Source of the DNA: Deltaproteobacteria bacterium
GTDB lineage: Bacteria; Desulfobacterota; Dissulfuribacteria; Dissulfuribacterales; UBA3076
Assembly: GCA_018399745.1 (NCBI GenBank)
Contig: JAGYNZ010000004.1
Location: 1 to 64,000, forward strand
Length of the DNA stretch: 64,000 nucleotides
Direction: 5' to 3'
Shown here: in pieces, positions 22,988 through 36,891 of the stretch
Layout: the number at the start of each line of letters is the position of its first letter
Numbering within the stretch: the stretch's first letter is position 1
Position numbers and translations under genes: made by a program
The notes under the pieces: generated by a model
What the model was told of the DNA's origin: nothing
The model's database searches: none
The model's input: only the letters and a program-made list of their open reading frames with translations

Positions 22988-23200
22988 TGTTACGCTTTGC
23001 CGCAGGCTTATGATCCCACAAAATGGGAAGAGGCTATGAAGACGTCCCGTGAATGGGGAGACAAGATCCCCCTGGGCATTATTTACCGGAATGAACGGTT
23101 GCCTTTTGAAGAGCACTTTTCCGTCCTGAATCAAGGGCCTCTGGTAGGGAGGGATGTAGACCGTGTAATGCTCAAGAGTATCATGGAAGGTTTTGGATAG
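22988..23200 (+). pseudogene. C-terminal fragment of a 2-oxoacid:ferredoxin oxidoreductase beta subunit
   Basis: After an in-frame TGA (22985-22987) about 70 codons read PQAYDPTKWEEAMKTSREWG then D-K-I-P-L-G-I-I-Y-R-N-E-R. This is the well-known C-terminal end of thiamine-pyrophosphate-binding beta subunits of 2-oxoacid (for example 2-oxoglutarate or pyruvate) ferredoxin oxidoreductases. The catalytic thiamine domain is missing and only SufB precedes it, so this is a remnant of a deleted gene. A TTG at 22997 could start a short peptide but has no ribosome site. Confidence 0.7.
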
Positions 23201-23255
23201 TTTTCAGTTGATCGAAGATTTAATCCAATCGGTTCATATTATAGAGAGGTACATC

Positions 23256-24293
23256 ATGTCAGACAACGGAAGTGGAATGAATCGCAGACATTTTATTAAG
23301 CTGGCGGCAATCGCTGCCGGTGGTGCTGGTTTTACAGGAGGATTGTCCTTTGCCCAAGAACCACAGACCGGCCAGGAGCCTGATAGCCCAGTCTATTTGG
23401 CATTGAATATGTCGAAAGTGGTCAACAGCGAAGAGAGTTTCAGGCTGATGAAAAAGGTTGGGCCAAGGGTCTGTATAACGACGGCTACACACCCCGGGTT
23501 TGTAGGATTTCAGGCCAATATTCAGACCGGAATTCTGCCTCTGGCCGGTCGATACGGTGGGGGAAAGGTGCATATGGAAACGGAATTGAACCCCGTACGT
23601 AATTACCAGTATACAATGTGGAAGAAATGGCAAGACCACGACGACTTTCATCTAAAACAGTTTGACAGGACCTTTGAATTGTGCGGAAGTTGTATGTCCA
23701 TGATCATCGAGGGTCCATGGGAGCCTGTTTACAGGGTGGTAAAGGCCAAGATGCCCCCCATAAGATCCATGGGCCAGATTTCCGATCTTGGCATCGATAT
23801 GAAGGAAGGAAAGGAATTTATTCGTTTTGCCACACCTGCGCGCTGTGTAGCCCTGGCCGAGCATACGGTCAAGCCCGGGAGGGAAAAGGCCTTTGAGCAG
23901 GGAGCCATAGCCACCATGGAGGCCTTGTCTGATTCGACGGGTTTTTTAGGATACATGATCCTTAAACAGATGGGTGTCTGCGCTTTAGGGAGTTTCATGA
24001 TGGACCCTAAATCCATGGTACAATCTTTACAGACTCTGGGGGCAAATCCACCGAAAGATCCCAAACCTTTGTTTGAAACGCCTGAGGCAACGCCAAGCCC
24101 TCCGGAATATCTCATTCACAGCGAATGGGATGCAGCAGAAATGGCACAGCTAGGTTTTGCCAAGGTATTGGTCAATCACAGGATTATAAAGATTCATGAT
24201 GACGGTGTTATGGCACATCTAATTAGAGGCCCTTATATAATGTTTTTCCAGCCCATGATGGAAGAGCCTGGCTGGAGAACCATGCTGACCTAG
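23256..24293 (+). CDS. sor: Sulfur oxygenase reductase with twin-arginine signal peptide
   Basis: The 345-residue protein matches archaeal sulfur oxygenase reductase (SOR), which disproportionates elemental sulfur with O2 to sulfite, thiosulfate and sulfide. The catalytic residues known from Acidianus ambivalens (C31, H86, H90, C101, C104, E114) reappear at a constant offset of 42: C73 (RVCITTATHPGFVGF), H128 and H132 (DHDDFH), C143 and C146 (CGSC) and E156 (GPWEP). Known SORs are cytoplasmic. This one has 42 extra N-terminal residues with a Tat signal (NRRHFIKLAA followed by A-I-A-A-G-G-A-G-F and cleavage near SFAQ). I chose ATG 23256, six bases after AGAGAGG; an ATG at 23193 would bury the signal. 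The mature enzyme is probably periplasmic. Confidence 0.92.
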   Translation: MSDNGSGMNRRHFIKLAAIAAGGAGFTGGLSFAQEPQTGQEPDSPVYLALNMSKVVNSEESFRLMKKVGPRVCITTATHPGFVGFQANIQTGILPLAGRYGGGKVHMETELNPVRNYQYTMWKKWQDHDDFHLKQFDRTFELCGSCMSMIIEGPWEPVYRVVKAKMPPIRSMGQISDLGIDMKEGKEFIRFATPARCVALAEHTVKPGREKAFEQGAIATMEALSDSTGFLGYMILKQMGVCALGSFMMDPKSMVQSLQTLGANPPKDPKPLFETPEATPSPPEYLIHSEWDAAEMAQLGFAKVLVNHRIIKIHDDGVMAHLIRGPYIMFFQPMMEEPGWRTMLT

Positions 24294-26616: not shown

Positions 26617-27096
26617 ATGAAAAAAGTGCCGATTACTATTGGCGTTTTTGTTGTTACGGCTTGTTTACTTTCCGGTTCAGTTGCATTTGCGGACATGCCC
26701 GGAGCGAACCCGGAAGAGCTGTGGAATTATATCACAAAAGTTTCTCCATATAAGGAATGGTCTTTCTGGCCAGACCATCAAGGGATGCAACCAGGTCGTG
26801 CCCCCCATGGACCGTTACACAAGGTTTACGTGAACGACCGTGCGCTGAAGTCACCAGGACCCCCGGTCCAGTATGGAGCCATTGAGGTAAAGGAAAACTA
26901 CAGCAAAGAGAAAGAACTCAAGGCAATCACTGTGATGTATAAGGTCAATGGATACAATCCTGTCGATGGGGACTGGTTCTGGGTAAACTATACACCCGAG
27001 GGTGAAGCCGAGCCTTTTGGCAAACCCTCGGGCTGTATTCTTTGTCATGGAACCAGAGTCGACAACGACTTTATAATAGTACACGAGTTCAAGTAA
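26617..27096 (+). CDS. Cytochrome P460-family protein
   Basis: The 159-residue exported protein has a Sec signal peptide (1-25, ending near AFAD), the family segments VQYGAIEVKENY and AITVMYKVNGYNPVDGDWFW, and one c-type haem site C140-I-L-C-H144 near the C-terminus. In cytochrome P460 a lysine cross-links the haem and the enzyme oxidises hydroxylamine or NO; K92 in VKENY is a candidate that needs alignment. AAGGAGG precedes the start. Together with the HAO-like cytochromes at 3.8 and 14.6 kb it suggests periplasmic hydroxylamine/NO chemistry. It may also be an NO-detoxifying cytochrome c'-beta-like protein. Confidence 0.85.
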   Translation: MKKVPITIGVFVVTACLLSGSVAFADMPGANPEELWNYITKVSPYKEWSFWPDHQGMQPGRAPHGPLHKVYVNDRALKSPGPPVQYGAIEVKENYSKEKELKAITVMYKVNGYNPVDGDWFWVNYTPEGEAEPFGKPSGCILCHGTRVDNDFIIVHEFK

Positions 27097-27777: not shown

Positions 27778-28026
27778 ATGCATGACAAAAAGGAATTGTG
27801 TGAGAAGATCAAGTCGATCTATCCTGACATCGGCGAATGCGGCATAGATGTCGATGTGGAGTATGATGAGACAAAAAAGGCCTGGCTTGTTGACCTGAAA
27901 AAAGGTGAACATGAGCTCAAGACTCACCTGGAACCCTCAGAAGCAGATGACTGTATGGAAGGGAAACAGTGTGTTTCTCTGGGTGTGCAGATTGGGGGAC
28001 TGAGGACGAACATAGAGAAGATGTAG
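27778..28026 (+). CDS. Small acidic cysteine-containing protein, unknown
   Basis: The 82-residue protein is acidic, with four cysteines (C8, C20, C60, C66) and a pattern C-G-I-D-V-D-V-E-Y-D-E suggesting a beta strand pair. No family is recognised. GGGGATGAG precedes the ATG. No signal peptide is seen, so it is cytoplasmic. Its place between the P460/DUF4079 genes and the selenoprotein-glutaredoxin-FTR group hints at a thiol or metal-related role. Confidence 0.7.
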   Translation: MHDKKELCEKIKSIYPDIGECGIDVDVEYDETKKAWLVDLKKGEHELKTHLEPSEADDCMEGKQCVSLGVQIGGLRTNIEKM

Positions 28027-28240
28027 AGTCAATCAAAAACAGGTCTTGGTGCCTGTGCGGTTAATTGACATAGGGTGGGCGGGGCTTACATGCTGAGTCA
28101 ATAAGAAGTGGGTTTTTCCACCTTTTTTGCTGCAACTGGCGAGGGAGCGTGAAAAGGCCCGTATTTCAGCGATGAATTCTGTTTACTTGTCCTGACTCAC
28201 CCTCATTGCATCAGACAAATCCATACAGACGGCCTTGTCA

Positions 28241-28275
28241 AAGACTGAATGAAGGCCTCGTTGAATTTCAGTCTT
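28241..28275 (+). other. Hairpin in the leader of the selenoprotein gene
   Basis: AAGACTGAA (28241-28249) and TTCAGTCTT (28267-28275) form a perfect nine-pair stem with a 17-base loop. It ends about ten bases before the GGGAG ribosome site of the selenoprotein. It may stabilise or regulate the message. A weak terminator-like hairpin (GTGG/CCAC plus six T, 28109-28128) lies further upstream, after the small acidic gene. Confidence 0.4.
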
Positions 28276-28297
28276 AAGGATTAAGGGAGAAATAATC

Positions 28298-28867
28298 ATG
28301 GCGGAAAACATCAAATGGGAAACAGATTTAGACAGCGCACTGCAACGGGCACGGGCTGAGAACAAATTTATATTGCTTAGTTTTTTCAATCCCGGATGAA
28401 TTGGATGTCAACAGATGGATGCAGTTACGTATCCCGATGGAAAGGTGACCAGGTTTATCAATGATAATATGATTCCCCTTCAGGTCCGATTCGATGTCCA
28501 ACCCCTGTCCACAGATTTTAATATAAAGTGGACACCCACCCTTATCACTTTAGATGCCCAAGGCAAGGAGCATCATCGGACAGTGGGTTTTCTTGCCCCT
28601 GAAGAGTTGATTCCTTCACTGTTGCTGGGTATGGGGAAGTCCTATCTGGAGATGGATCAATTTGATGAGGCACTCGCAAAGATAGAAAAACTGCTGTCAG
28701 AATATCCAAAAAGCCATTCGGTGCCTGAGGCTCTCTATTGGCGCGGCGTATGCAGGTACAAAGCCACAGATGATACCAGGCCTCTCAAGGAGGCCTATGA
28801 GCAATTAAAGGCCGAACACGCCTCAAGCGAGTGGACCAAGAGGGCCTATCCTTATCGGCTTTTATAG
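28298..28867 (+). CDS. Thioredoxin-fold selenoprotein with U-x-x-C active site (in-frame TGA)
   Basis: Reading through TGA at 28397-28399 gives a continuous 189-residue protein: M-A-E-N-I-K-W start after GGGAGA, then LLSFFNPG-U34-I-G-C37-QQMDAVTY. The TGA falls exactly at the first cysteine position of the thioredoxin-fold C-x-x-C. The downstream 155 codons stay open and keep the fold, including the cis-proline strand KWTPTLITLD (near 80) and a C-terminal tetratricopeptide-like helical tail (about 110-180). A SECIS-like hairpin follows the TGA. The protein is therefore read as a selenocysteine-containing reductase of thioredoxin type. It has no signal peptide. Gene callers would split it and start at ATG 28415. 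Glutaredoxin and ferredoxin-thioredoxin reductase genes lie just downstream. Confidence 0.87.
28403..28434 (+). promoter_or_regulatory. Bacterial SECIS-like element
   Basis: Three bases after the TGA, GGATGT pairs with GTATCC (two G-U pairs), then AAC pairs with GTT across a small internal loop, closing an 11-base apical loop AGATGGATGCA. The loop GG lies 18-19 bases after the TGA. In the E. coli fdhF SECIS the loop GG is at almost the same distance. This spacing is what SelB requires. Confidence 0.7.
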
Positions 28868-28963
28868 GCCAAATAAGGGACTATAAAAGACGGCAGGATT
28901 TGACTTTTAAGAAGGCCTTCTCCAGATTTCATAAAAACGTTTTTAAAGATAGAGGGGTTGGGG

Positions 28964-29215
28964 ATGAAAAAACCGGTTAAAATTTATACGCTCAGTACAT
29001 GTAGCCATTGCAAGGCCACTAAAACATTTTTGAATGACTGCGCTGTGGAGTATGAATTTACTGATGTGGATCTGCTTCAAGGAGGAGAAAGGACCGCTAT
29101 CCTTGAGGACGTAAAAAAATGGAATCCACAGTGCTCCTTTCCCACAATCATAATTGGAGACAAAGTCATTATTGGATACAAAGAAGATGAGATCAGGGAG
29201 GCCCTTGGATTATGA
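28964..29215 (+). CDS. Glutaredoxin-like protein
   Basis: The 83-residue protein has the thioredoxin/glutaredoxin fold with the active site C13-S-H-C16 in YTLSTCSHCKATK, the cis-proline strand CSFPTIIIGDKVIIGY and a final helix DEIREAL. The start at ATG 28964 follows AGAGGGG by six bases; an upstream TTG at 28958 is not needed. It overlaps the next gene by ATGA (29212-29215). It is probably the substrate or partner of the ferredoxin-thioredoxin reductase encoded next. Confidence 0.88.
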   Translation: MKKPVKIYTLSTCSHCKATKTFLNDCAVEYEFTDVDLLQGGERTAILEDVKKWNPQCSFPTIIIGDKVIIGYKEDEIREALGL

Positions 29216-29547
29216 ATGAGGTGGAAAGGCTTTATGAGACTTTAAAAAAGTTTCAAGAGCCCAAAGGTTACTATTTTAATAGAGACAAAGAAAGGGTCTT
29301 CGAGCTCCTTGACGCACTTCTCGTTAACAAGAAACGTTACGGCTATATGTCCTGCCCCTGCAGACTGGCATCCGGTGACCGCGGCCTGGATAAGGACATC
29401 TTATGCCCTTGTGTTTACAGAGGCCCTGATGTGGAAGAGTATGGGAGTTGCTATTGTAATCTTTACGTTTCAAAGGCATGGAACGAGGACAAGATACCCA
29501 GGGTCCATGTCCCGGAGAGAAGACCCCGGGAAAAAATTCCTTATTGA
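29212..29547 (+). CDS. Ferredoxin-thioredoxin reductase catalytic subunit (FTR-like)
   Basis: The 111-residue protein has the three cysteine clusters of the FTR catalytic chain: C48-P-C50, C65-P-C67 and C80-Y-C82. These bind a [4Fe-4S] cluster next to the redox disulfide. The last motif is CYC, not the CHC of plant enzymes, and the spacing to it is longer, as in some bacterial and archaeal variants. The enzyme takes electrons from ferredoxin to reduce thioredoxin-type proteins in the cytoplasm. No variable subunit gene is present. It overlaps the glutaredoxin gene, which with the selenoprotein makes a likely ferredoxin-to-thiol relay. Confidence 0.9.
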   Translation: MNEVERLYETLKKFQEPKGYYFNRDKERVFELLDALLVNKKRYGYMSCPCRLASGDRGLDKDILCPCVYRGPDVEEYGSCYCNLYVSKAWNEDKIPRVHVPERRPREKIPY

Positions 29548-29716
29548 ATTGTAAAAAGAGAACGCTGGGTTAAGTGCCAGGAAATCGTCTGGCCCTGCTT
29601 ATGCCTTTTTTGAAACCATCTGCATCGAAAGGTCTCCTGGGATATCGGGAGACAAAAAGAATGCCTGTAAGAGGCTGAGGACATCACAAGAAGAGTTGGG
29701 AGGGGACCGCCATTTA

Positions 29717-29752: not shown

Positions 29753-32461
29753 CTACGGGGTAACGACCACCTGCACGCCGTCCAAATAAATCTGATCGAG
29801 GGAGAGATACCCGTCTCGGTTCGTGTCCACCGCAAAGTAGAGCCAATACGTGCCCGGAGGAACGCTCGAAAGAGACGTGGGCAAATCAATGGCCGGCGGG
29901 GGAAAACTCACAAGAATCCCCTGATAGATGGGAACGGGTACGACGGACCAGCCTGAAAGAGAGAGAAACGCTAGCCCGGCGGGAGATTGGAGAAACAGCC
30001 AATAGTCCGCTTCCGGCCCAATGGTATTGCCGTTTTCCAGAAGCAGGGACACCGTCAATGAACCGGAGCGGCTGACCTCCACCTTTCTGTCCGAATCGTT
30101 TGCTTTGATGTCCGGTACTGGAAACATCATGCCCCTCTGAGGATGCCGGAATTCGTCGTCACCGCCGCTGCTTTGCGGCACGATTTTTTCAATGCGCCAT
30201 TCCTGGTTGTCAGTGTTGCGGGTGAGAGTATCCTTGCAATCCCAGATTTGGACGTTTCCACAATTCTTCATGTCGTTATTATTGTAGTTGTCCGCGTCCA
30301 GGCACTTGCCGCTGCTCCTAACTTTCAGACGGTAGTAACCATCCTGCGCCCGTTCGATGCACCATTCCTGATGGTCGTTGGCGGCGTCCGAGGAAATGCA
30401 ATTGGCCACCTGGACATTGCCGCCGTTGGTGGCGTCGCTTCCGCCCGAATCATCGGCCTCCAGGCATTTTCCATTGCGCTTTATAACAGAATAAGTCCCG
30501 GAGGTGGTGATCTCCCACTGCTGTCTGGACGAGCCCTCACAGTTTCGCAGTTCAACGTTGGTATTGGTCCGCCTGTCTAACTCCAGGCACTTGCCGCTCG
30601 ATCGAACTTTGATCAGGTAGGTGTCGCTCGGGAGGCTTGCGGGCGTTTCCACCGTAAATTTTACAGGCGGTCCCCAGGGGGCTCCTCCGTGATCATTGAA
30701 CGGCCGAACCGACCACCAGTGTTCGCCGTCGTTTAGGATAGTCGGAGATGCGACGGCACAGGTGGGGCTTACTCCGCCGCAGTCCCAGCAGTCACAGCTG
30801 GCATCCAACGAAGAATACCAGCGAATGAAGTTGATGCCGGTGGTATTATAGACCAGCAACTGATATCTCGTCGCCCCTTCCGAGGCGTCCCATTTGAATG
30901 TAGGCGTATGATCCGCTTCGGCCCCCCCGGGAGATCGAAGCGTCGTAGCAGCGGGCACCCGGACCTCAAACGCTGCCGGATCGCTGTCAAACCATACTGA
31001 CGACACCCGGGCCGAAACCGTCCAGTTTCCCTCATAGACTTCCCCGGGAATGCTTTTTGAGCACAACCCGCCGTGAGGGCACCCCGCCTCCTCAGGAGAA
31101 ACGTCCTGCGTGAAAGACCCGCCGCCCCCGGTGTCCGTCACTCGTATACGATAAGTGCTGGCCCCTGGAATTGCATACCATTCGTAGTCATGATCCGGGA
31201 AATCCTCGATTCCCCGGGGCGCAATAATCTCAGGGTATTCGGGAAGCAGCGTGCTGTCAAAGATGTGGCGGCGCCCCACATTGGACTTCCATGCCTTATT
31301 GCTCGAGTGGTAGGCATTTTCAATAGTCACCAGATAATGGTTGTCATACACCGATTCGCCCAGGGCGTGTCCTATATAGTTGAAATAGATAAGACCCCTC
31401 TCCAGCCGATTGCGTCCTTCCAGGAGCGCACCGCAGGATTTGTCGAGCGCTGCATCGCAGGAATTCGTATCCAGTCGCCCCAGCAGGTAAGCCACAGATT
31501 TGTTCTTGTAGCGGAATTTGACCCCTTCAATGCCGATATCGTCTATGACCTCCTGCCAGTAACCGTTCAGATTGCCTCCCAGTCCGTAGATGTAATCATC
31601 GTATGTAATCGGGCAGAGGCCCGGATCGTCGGGGCAGCAGTCGGGATCGGGGCAGAGGCTGAAAAAGGCCGGCACTGGGGTCAGGAAGGCATCCATAGTC
31701 CCGGGAAATACACGTTCGTCGGAAAAATAGACATAGGAAGACGGGTTAGCAATGACGTACTTCATCAGGACACCGGTCTCCCAAATGGTCTCCCCTATGC
31801 GCGTGGAGGCGGCGTAGCGGTTGACGTACTGGCCTCCGGCCGAGTGCCCTGCGATGACGATCTTCGCCAGGTTGGGGAAGTTGCCGCTGGTTGCGATATA
31901 CTCAATAATGCGGTCCATGACGTCGTAGGAACTCACGCCGCCGGCATTCACGGAAGGGTCGCCGAACTTCCAGCCGTTGCTGGTCCATTTGAGTCCCGTG
32001 GACGTATTCAGGCCGTAATGGGCGAGATTCGCGTTGCTCTGCACGAAATGCGGCGCCATGATCAGGGTGGAATTCAGCTCACATGGCGGATCTGTCGCAT
32101 CTCGTTCCCTCCAATGCAAATTCGGGGTAGTGTCCATGATCATGCAGGCGCTACCTTTCATCCGGTCGTACTGCACCTCGGCCTTTGTGTCGTCGTCTCC
32201 TGCGCCGTGGATAGCGATGACGACTCTATAAATGTCCTCATTACGCGTGCTTAAAGGGTAGTTGCGAAAATAGGGGACCCTGTAAGTACTCCCTCCGGAC
32301 TGAATGTTAATCCGACCCTCCTCCGAGGCATCCGCCGCAACGGCACTCGTTTCGAAGGATTGAAAGAAAATGAGCGTTAGGACGCAGCCGAGGATCAGTG
32401 CCATCCCCCACCAACGGTCGCTCTTTCCCATGCAAAAAAGGCTGAAAGTTATCCCTTTCAT
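29753..32461 (-). CDS. Secreted alpha/beta hydrolase with ricin-type lectin domain
   Basis: The 902-residue protein has a long signal or anchor segment (residues about 15-43, ending near SAVAADA). An alpha/beta-hydrolase domain (about 50-420) carries the nucleophile elbow IAGHSAGGQYVN. Two fibronectin-like or sandwich regions (about 435-625) follow, then a ricin-type beta-trefoil (about 630-775) with three Q-x-W repeats (QQW, QEW, QEW) and SSGKCLE/D segments. A C-terminal domain ends in a calcium-loop-like DTNRDGYLSLDQIYLDG. Many cysteines suggest disulfides. It is probably a polysaccharide- or ester-degrading extracellular enzyme, with the lectin for substrate attachment. A strong AAAGGAGGG precedes the ATG. 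Base composition is more GC-rich than the flanking genes, hinting at transfer. Confidence 0.85.
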   Translation of the reverse strand: MKGITFSLFCMGKSDRWWGMALILGCVLTLIFFQSFETSAVAADASEEGRINIQSGGSTYRVPYFRNYPLSTRNEDIYRVVIAIHGAGDDDTKAEVQYDRMKGSACMIMDTTPNLHWRERDATDPPCELNSTLIMAPHFVQSNANLAHYGLNTSTGLKWTSNGWKFGDPSVNAGGVSSYDVMDRIIEYIATSGNFPNLAKIVIAGHSAGGQYVNRYAASTRIGETIWETGVLMKYVIANPSSYVYFSDERVFPGTMDAFLTPVPAFFSLCPDPDCCPDDPGLCPITYDDYIYGLGGNLNGYWQEVIDDIGIEGVKFRYKNKSVAYLLGRLDTNSCDAALDKSCGALLEGRNRLERGLIYFNYIGHALGESVYDNHYLVTIENAYHSSNKAWKSNVGRRHIFDSTLLPEYPEIIAPRGIEDFPDHDYEWYAIPGASTYRIRVTDTGGGGSFTQDVSPEEAGCPHGGLCSKSIPGEVYEGNWTVSARVSSVWFDSDPAAFEVRVPAATTLRSPGGAEADHTPTFKWDASEGATRYQLLVYNTTGINFIRWYSSLDASCDCWDCGGVSPTCAVASPTILNDGEHWWSVRPFNDHGGAPWGPPVKFTVETPASLPSDTYLIKVRSSGKCLELDRRTNTNVELRNCEGSSRQQWEITTSGTYSVIKRNGKCLEADDSGGSDATNGGNVQVANCISSDAANDHQEWCIERAQDGYYRLKVRSSGKCLDADNYNNNDMKNCGNVQIWDCKDTLTRNTDNQEWRIEKIVPQSSGGDDEFRHPQRGMMFPVPDIKANDSDRKVEVSRSGSLTVSLLLENGNTIGPEADYWLFLQSPAGLAFLSLSGWSVVPVPIYQGILVSFPPPAIDLPTSLSSVPPGTYWLYFAVDTNRDGYLSLDQIYLDGVQVVVTP

Positions 32462-35296: not shown

Positions 35297-35866
35297 TCAG
35301 GCCTTCCTGACCTCAATCGGCTTGACGTTAGCCTTAGGTATTGCCTTCCTGGGCATTTTTATGGTCAGAATGCCATTTTTAAAGGTTGCCTGGATGTCCT
35401 CCTTCGCGGCGTCTTCCGGCAGAGAAAGGACTCGCTGAAACGAACCGTAGGATCGTTCGACACAATAGTAATTCTTGTCTTTTTCTTCTTTTTCCTGATT
35501 CTTTTCACCTCGGATAATCATGTTGTTGTCTTCAAGTTCAACTTTGATGTCTTTTTCACTTACCCCGGGGACTTCCACGGTAATGGAATATTCCTTTTCC
35601 GTCGCGCCTATATCTACCTTTGGCTTCAGCAGTCTGGCAGCAGAGTCGTGAGTAAAAAAATCAGAACTGAAAGATGACCGCCCAAAGCCCCGAAAGGCAT
35701 TTTCAAAAAGCCTGTCCATCTCGCTATGCAGTTGGATAATTGGGTTTGCCATACTGCTCGGGGGATAGGCGGTCTGAACATCGCCACTCTTCACCGGCAC
35801 AATGGAGCCTGTTTGCTCTTCTTCTTTTTTGAACCAGTTCCATGGCACAAGTTTCTTGATATCCAT
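35297..35866 (-). CDS. Small heat-shock protein (Hsp20/alpha-crystallin), first copy
   Basis: The 189-residue protein has a variable N-terminal region (1-80) with FGRSSFSSDFF and an alpha-crystallin domain (about 82-175; KVDIGATEKEYSITVEVPGV, VERSYGSFQRVLSLP, A-x-x-x-N-G-I-L-T-I) and the I-P-K-A-N-x-K-P-I tail. It holds unfolding proteins in ATP-independent oligomers. AGGAGG precedes the ATG. A terminator separates it from the upstream copy, so it has its own promoter. Confidence 0.92.
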   Translation of the reverse strand: MDIKKLVPWNWFKKEEEQTGSIVPVKSGDVQTAYPPSSMANPIIQLHSEMDRLFENAFRGFGRSSFSSDFFTHDSAARLLKPKVDIGATEKEYSITVEVPGVSEKDIKVELEDNNMIIRGEKNQEKEEKDKNYYCVERSYGSFQRVLSLPEDAAKEDIQATFKNGILTIKMPRKAIPKANVKPIEVRKA

Positions 35867-35907
35867 ATTGACCTCCTGTTATCTGGTTTTTTGATCTCTG
35901 AACAAAA

Positions 35908-35940
35908 AGCAGGAAACCACTTCCAAGGTGATTTCCTGCT
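35908..35940 (-). terminator. Intrinsic terminator between small heat-shock genes
   Basis: AGCAGGAAA / TTTCCTGCT form a nine-pair stem around a 15-base loop, followed on the minus strand by a T-rich run (TTTTTG). It lies after the stop of the middle Hsp20 gene and ends that transcript. Confidence 0.7.
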
Positions 35941-36015
35941 CCATTTACTTTTTTCTGTCTGCAAAGAATCGGAAGAAAGTCGTAACCCGACCCGTTTTAA
36001 ATATCTGTTATTTTT

Positions 36016-36402
36016 TCAAGCGGCCTTAATCTCTATCTGCTTAGGCTTGGCGGCTTCTGATTTCACCAGATGGAGGCGCAGTACACCATCCTTCACTTCA
36101 GCATTTATCTTGTTCACGTCTATTGTCTGCGGTACTGAAAAGGTCCTCCTGTATTCGACATTGCCAAATTCTTCCCATTGAACTGTCCCCTTGGCCTCAA
36201 TTTTTCTGACGCCACAAAGAGAGAGCTTGCCGTTATCGATATTGACCGTAATGTCTTTCTTGTCAACCCCTGGCATGTCCGCATGCAGCAGAATTTCATC
36301 ATCGTTTTCGTAAATATCGACAAGGGGGGCCAGTGAAGGGATATCACGGCTCCTTTCCGGTAAAGACTTTTCCCCTTTCACAAGTTCTGTTCTATTGCTC
36401 AT
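36016..36402 (-). CDS. Small heat-shock protein (Hsp20), second copy
   Basis: The 128-residue protein is a compact Hsp20: short N-terminus, then the alpha-crystallin domain (about 25-115) with VDIYENDDEILLHADMPGV, Y-R-R-T-F-S-V-P and DGVLRLHLVKSEAA, and a K-Q-I-E-I-K tail. AGGAGG precedes the ATG. It lies 42 bases after the third copy and probably shares its transcript. The DMPGV and KSEAAKPKQIxI segments are shared with the 36445 copy, suggesting tandem duplication. Confidence 0.92.
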   Translation of the reverse strand: MSNRTELVKGEKSLPERSRDIPSLAPLVDIYENDDEILLHADMPGVDKKDITVNIDNGKLSLCGVRKIEAKGTVQWEEFGNVEYRRTFSVPQTIDVNKINAEVKDGVLRLHLVKSEAAKPKQIEIKAA

Positions 36403-36444
36403 GTGAACCTCCTATTCATTCTCGTTTCTTAGCTTTCACGTTAA

Positions 36445-36891
36445 TCAATTAATTGGAATCTGCTTCGGCTTTGCCGCCTCTGATTTTGGTAACGTAAGAG
36501 TGAGCAGGCCATTCGCCAGCTTTGCATCTACCTTGTTCGTATCTACCTCTGAAGGCAGCGTGAAGCTTCTGCTGAATGAGCTCGTGCCCCTTTCCACTCT
36601 ATGAGCCGAATAACCTTTTGGGGTATCTGATCTCCGCGAACCGCTGATCTCAAGATAATTGCCCTGCACCTTGATATTGAGATCGTCCTTTGTGATACAC
36701 GGAAGCTCGACTTTCATTTCGAGATGGTCACCGGCATCGTAAAGATTTGTGCTGGGACCGGTTTGAAATGCGTCCCAGGCCGCCGGGAAGCTCCTGAATC
36801 CGCCATAATCAGGGAATAACCTGTTCATTCTGTTTTGAAGCAGATCCATGGCATTAAACATTCGATCAATGTCACTCCATCTTGTCCACAT
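36445..36891 (-). CDS. Small heat-shock protein (Hsp20), third copy
   Basis: The 148-residue protein has an Hsp20 N-terminal MWTRWSDIDRMFNAMDLLQN, an alpha-crystallin domain (about 45-140; DAGDHLEMKVELPCITKDDL, FSRSFTLPSEV, LANGLLTLTLPKSEA) and a K-Q-I-P-I tail. GGAGG precedes the start. It is the promoter-proximal gene of the pair with the 36016 copy and is divergent from the tandem-domain protein gene at 37098, with about 200 bases between for promoters. No CIRCE element was found there. Confidence 0.92.
   Translation of the reverse strand: MWTRWSDIDRMFNAMDLLQNRMNRLFPDYGGFRSFPAAWDAFQTGPSTNLYDAGDHLEMKVELPCITKDDLNIKVQGNYLEISGSRRSDTPKGYSAHRVERGTSSFSRSFTLPSEVDTNKVDAKLANGLLTLTLPKSEAAKPKQIPIN

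Follow-up and report, generated by a model that had tools for sequence, protein, structure and literature searches.

The window analysed here, a 64-kb stretch of DNA (64,000 nucleotides), contains a reading frame that starts at ATG 28298, stops at TAG 28865-28867 and is interrupted by a single internal TGA, which raises the question of whether this codon ends a gene or encodes selenocysteine (Sec). The original prediction was of a frame with a GGGAGA ribosome binding site that runs for 33 codons, meets the TGA at 28397-28399 and continues open for a further 155 codons, and this description is borne out. It also held that annotation would truncate the protein to a start at ATG 28415; the mechanical list of open reading frames (ORFs) does give only the ORF from 28415, which encodes 150 residues. 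The features of the locus are as follows.

28285..28290, + strand: ribosome binding site GGGAGA, 7 bases before ATG 28298, read from the sequence
28298..28867, + strand: predicted Sec-containing thioredoxin-like/TPR protein of 189 residues (U34), based on homologues and on purifying selection before and after the TGA
28349..28612, + strand: thioredoxin-fold domain (PF13098) with Sec34, Cys37 and an invariant W78-T79-P80
28397..28399, + strand: in-frame TGA, predicted to encode Sec34 in the motif U-I-G-C; TGA in 93 of 104 relatives
28417..28434, + strand: bSECIS-like hairpin, stem 28417-28422 / 28429-28434, apical loop 28423-28428 (AGUUAC)
28595..28864, + strand: C-terminal TPR-like helices (PF13174, TPR_6, 42.5 bits; AlphaFold2 model)
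28958..29215, + strand: glutaredoxin-like protein (PF00462, CSHC), perhaps co-transcribed; only the closest relatives retain it
29212..29547, + strand: ferredoxin-thioredoxin reductase (FTR) catalytic beta chain (PF02943)

Searching 99 genomes with the protein yielded 20 in which a full-length match contains a single TGA and one, G060, in which it contains none. A named collection added nine full-length relatives, from records of Deltaproteobacteria/Desulfobacterales, Geobacteraceae, Nitrospinota and Acidobacteria, all with a stop in frame at the corresponding position. When 395 genomes of the phylum were searched with a profile, 137 matched at E 1e-12, in many cases over the thioredoxin domain only; full-length relatives were taken among the matches listed, and the 139 loci screened yielded 117 full-length rows and, once exact duplicates were dropped, 104 distinct sequences. 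The aligned codon in these 104 is TGA in 93, Cys (TGC) in nine and neither in two, although some of the 93 TGA forms are near-identical and do not amount to 93 independent events. The TGA is kept at the exact codon in relatives down to about 33% identity, and the 93 carry no further in-frame TGA. Relatives that always ended at the TGA had been named beforehand as a sign of a nonsense mutation; instead, these 93 read through it, and homologues carry either U or, in the nine, Cys at position 34, as had been anticipated. Comparison of the window gene with its counterpart L038 gave a dN/dS of 0.26 for codons 1-33 and 0.12 for codons 35-189. With the TGA codon kept in relatives, and with dN/dS well under 1 before as well as after it, the open frame across the TGA is not due to chance.

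Some relatives depart from this pattern in their active sites. In loci L122, L124 and L128-L134, all from genome family f66, Sec has given way to Cys and the resolving Cys is mostly lost (CxGS), with L132 and L134 having neither Cys nor Sec at the aligned codon, so that the f66 relatives form a decay series of the active site. The U-form at L176 (genome G454) has a second in-frame TGA 113 codons past the first, which may represent a decayed copy, an assembly fault or a second Sec.

The hairpin lies downstream of the TGA, and its positions are numbered from the first base after that codon. Positions +18 to +23 pair with +30 to +35 to give six base pairs, enclosing a six-base loop at +24 to +29. 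The expectation of a hairpin just past the TGA holds, in that one is conserved in the U-forms, but the register and loop placing originally described do not: the GG at +18/+19, taken to be the loop, forms the foot of the stem (G+18 with C+35, G+19 with C+34), and the best gap-free stem that places +18/+19 in a loop has three pairs, compared with six in the actual stem. All six pairs are found in 79 of the 93 U-forms and in none of the nine Cys-forms; of the 14 U-forms that lack these six pairs in register, nine can adopt a displaced stem around GGUC or AGUU, as judged by eye and not by a formal count. Across the U-forms, 521 of 558 cells are paired against a shuffle mean of 487.5, a value that none of 1000 shuffles reached, and the in-register pairing of 93% of cells falls to 22-65% when slid by 1 to 3, the control slid by -2 still pairing 65%. 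The loop G at +25 (28424) is invariant in all 93 U-forms and is mostly followed by U.

Folding of codons +6 to +13 past the TGA was compared with synonymous-codon shuffles. The U-forms have a mean z of -2.73, and 80% of them reach P 0.05 or lower. For five control stretches of these genes the mean z ranges from -0.24 to +0.22, and for the 11 Cys/other forms it is -0.21; considered singly, the hairpin of the window gene is only borderline (z -2.05, P 0.057). A tree from which the hairpin columns were left out shows ten two-sided substitutions that preserve pairing (at +20/+33 in five cases, at +21/+32 in three, and at +18/+35 and +19/+34 in one each), and 15 changes that break a pair. The RNA pairing is visible even in the protein, at residues 41 and 45, which in the 93 U-forms are D/Y (53), G/Y (18), E/F (8), N/Y (8) or other combinations (6). 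From these comparisons of sequence, the conserved hairpin of the U-forms exceeds what the protein dictates, and selection acts on it only in genes with UGA at this codon. An Rfam scan of the hairpin region at E up to 10 returned chance matches only and no SECIS family. A divergent subgroup from genome family f38 (L107, L108, L110, L111, L113 and L115-L117), with the motif DG-U-(I/L/V)-G-C-A, has a different yet complete stem with the loop region GGGUCC, and provides a good independent example of the hairpin.

Family f57, which comprises 48 genomes, 41 of them with a profile match and 38 with a gene that was read, contains both forms (18 TGA and 20 Cys) in proteins whose sequence is otherwise similar. 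The TGA genes have a mean z of -2.85 and all six pairs in 16 of 18, whereas the Cys genes, which come from two genera (19 and 1) and represent few independent events, have a mean z of -0.42 and six pairs in none of 20. In the f57 Cys genes the hairpin has been lost together with Sec. SelA is found in 37 of the 38 genomes, including all 20 with a Cys gene, and hence Sec was dropped in one protein and not in the cell. This swap is a clean comparative demonstration that the hairpin functions in Sec insertion, and could be used to ask why bacteria drop selenium in one protein yet keep the pathway.

The machinery for Sec insertion, suggested earlier as something to look for, is all present in the source genome: SelA (607 bits), SelB (355 bits), SelD (384 bits) and a tRNA-Sec (74.5 bits) typed as SeC by ARAGORN with anticodon tca (UCA in the tRNA). 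The SelD is itself Sec-containing, with one in-frame TGA and the motif GUASK (L180:188-1114). Among the 20 U-form genomes of the 99-genome search, no SelA was found in G026, G050 and G086, no full-score SelB in G024, G026 and G086, and in G006 and G091 no high-scoring tRNA-Sec; every one of the 20 has at least one of the three. These assemblies are for the most part fragmented. Genome G468, rated 100% complete, has a U-form gene and no SelA match. In the 99-genome sample of the phylum, tRNA-Sec exceeds the cut-off in 89, SelB in 88 and SelA in 87; Sec genes being so common, their presence alone discriminates little and was not used as strong evidence. A codon-usage scan of the 64-kb window for other hidden Sec genes, of low power and ranking the Sec34 gene itself only ninth with low scores, gave no convincing candidate.

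Codon 34 UGA therefore very probably encodes Sec in a selenoprotein gene, as the original prediction proposed, given the Sec machinery, the TGA and Cys relatives, and a hairpin that is kept in the U-forms and absent from the Cys-forms. A nonsense mutation or sequencing error, leaving either a pseudogene or a gene whose true start is ATG 28415, would agree with the 150-residue ORF from 28415 that is all a gene caller would list. It is vanishingly improbable: 93 of 104 relatives share the TGA at this position and have no second one in frame, the codons upstream of it are under purifying selection (dN/dS 0.26), and nine of the 11 non-TGA relatives have Cys there; both the pseudogene and the late start were rejected on the conserved TGA and its Cys counterparts. 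The open frame alone would also suit leaky read-through or the decoding of TGA as some other amino acid such as Trp. The replacements, however, are Cys and not Trp, the genome has selA, selB, selD and a tRNA-Sec with anticodon tca, and the hairpin is selected only in TGA forms, which together led to the rejection of Trp and make any such reading highly improbable.

In the Sec34 protein, the TGA was expected to take the place of the first Cys in a thioredoxin-fold motif, and it does so: PF13098 (Thioredoxin_2) scores 43.8 bits (cut-off 27), the motif reads N-P-G-U34-I-G-C37, and both the domain and the UxxC motif (here U-I-G-C) are those by which the Sec family discussed below is described. The protein is not a classical thioredoxin by TIGR01068 (19.8 bits against a cut-off of 96.8), and no NCBIfam model passed, none covering the family of the Sec34 gene. 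An AlphaFold2 model built from ten sequences (pLDDT 92.3, pTM 0.88) has a strand at residues 24-30, a helix at 35-44 that starts directly past residue 34, and five C-terminal helices at 101-118, 122-135, 142-157, 161-173 and 178-182. By analogy, W78-T79-P80 would occupy the cis-Pro position, and the lack of a signal sequence, judged by eye, suggests a cytoplasmic location.

A thioredoxin fold with a cis-proline loop is associated with thiol/disulfide exchange. The UxxC thioredoxin fold and the invariant W-T-P point to such exchange, and thiol-disulfide chemistry is the likely activity of the Sec34 protein. During translation, SelB with Sec-tRNA(UCA) would bind the hairpin, whose loop carries the invariant G at 28424, and insert Sec. 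The Sec34 selenolate would then attack a substrate disulfide and Cys37 would resolve the mixed selenenyl sulfide, with the TPR-like tail docking a partner or substrate protein, a role for which the chances are about even; the whole would act as a thiol/disulfide reductase.

The pair of genes encoding the glutaredoxin-like protein and the FTR beta chain adjoins the Sec gene only in the window, the congener (L002/L038) and L039; L039 has two copies of the pair, separated by about 2 kb. When 664 neighbour ORFs were clustered, no neighbour recurred across the family. In the source genus, electrons might pass from ferredoxin through the downstream FTR beta chain and glutaredoxin, but this route is a guess, given that outside the window the two genes adjoin the Sec gene only in the congener and L039 and no neighbour is family-wide, and their role as electron donor is rather doubtful. 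The neighbourhood was dropped as a functional clue for lack of conservation across the family. Promoter and terminator scans over 28000-29700 gave about as many sites as in shuffled sequence.

Elsewhere in the window, whose source resembles a Desulfobacterota genome, there is a sulphur oxygenase reductase at 23193-24293 (PF07682, 468.5 bits), with a cytochrome P460-like gene nearby at 26617. On the minus strand, 29753-32461 encodes a protein of 902 residues whose C-terminal half contains ricin-type lectin domains (PF14200), and 35297-36891 contains three adjacent ORFs that we take to resemble small heat shock proteins.

A selenoprotein could also work chiefly as a CnoX-like holdase or scaffold via its TPR part, with Sec34 capturing oxidised cysteines and thiol reduction not being its main job. 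The order of domains, thioredoxin then TPR, is that of E. coli CnoX/YbbN, and Foldseek matches the model to 3qou and 3qdn (TM about 0.43 by query), but at an RMSD of 11-12 angstrom, so that the two parts do not superpose together; with a tail about half the length of that of CnoX, and with CnoX/YbbN absent from the phmmer matches at E up to 1, such a function, like membership of that family, is unlikely. It is quite unlikely that the protein is a selenium-based, ferredoxin-fed Trx-TPR adaptor, a selenium counterpart of the chaperedoxin in which Sec34 would quickly reduce or capture oxidised clients held by the TPR part. If it were, the family would also constitute a natural series from Sec to Cys (and from Cys to none) in which loss of the SECIS hairpin could be timed.

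The preferred reading, a Sec-containing thiol/disulfide reductase, has a probable published counterpart. A Sec-containing "thiol:disulfide interchange protein" was predicted in 2006 by Zhang and co-workers, with Syntrophus aciditrophicus, Geobacter metallireducens and G. uraniireducens among the hosts given in the accessible part of that paper (PMC1794560), and two reviews, in the portions available, place it under PF13098 with UxxC (PMC13188914, PMC9312934); its published representative is WP_011366075.1. The Sec34 gene probably belongs to this family, to which it is likened by the published description: domain, motif and bacterial group are the same, although the accessible descriptions include no TPR tail, unlike the Sec34 protein. 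In G455 (f57), the relative of the Sec34 gene is the only above-cut-off PF13098 match with an internal TGA; a weaker PF13098 match with a TGA (21.2 bits) is also present. The accessible part of a study of selenoproteins in marine Deltaproteobacteria makes no mention of thioredoxin (PMC8318568), and that of a report of five Sec genes in Desulfococcus multivorans names none of this kind (PMC5109826). In the open-access literature, neither a description of a Trx-TPR layout for a Sec protein nor the hairpin contrast between Sec and Cys forms was found, subscription papers being outside this scope. With mechanical ORF calling truncating the gene and no NCBIfam model for the family, the Sec residue is probably missed in many genomes.

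Other known systems share parts of the protein. The NCBIfam selenoprotein models have other Sec motifs and the Sec34 protein scores far below their cut-offs (38.6 of 805 bits; 24.1 of 275 bits); TsoB (NF045694), the VPGUxxT proteins (NF041383/NF041382) and Trx7/PDZ (NF041199) have only the thioredoxin domain in common with it. DsbD-gamma provides the best PDB matches of the model, and both it and DsbH rank high among the fold and sequence matches to the thioredoxin part, DsbH and CnoX/YbbN also being among the structural matches; compared with DsbD-gamma and DsbH, the Sec34 protein is without a membrane domain and, by eye, an obvious signal peptide, and has Sec for the first Cys as well as the TPR-like tail. 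The chaperedoxin CnoX/YbbN, a thioredoxin domain followed by TPR in the available description (PMC8129009), has SxxC where the Sec34 protein has UxxC, and two five-helix subdomains where the Sec34 protein has five C-terminal helices, about half as many.
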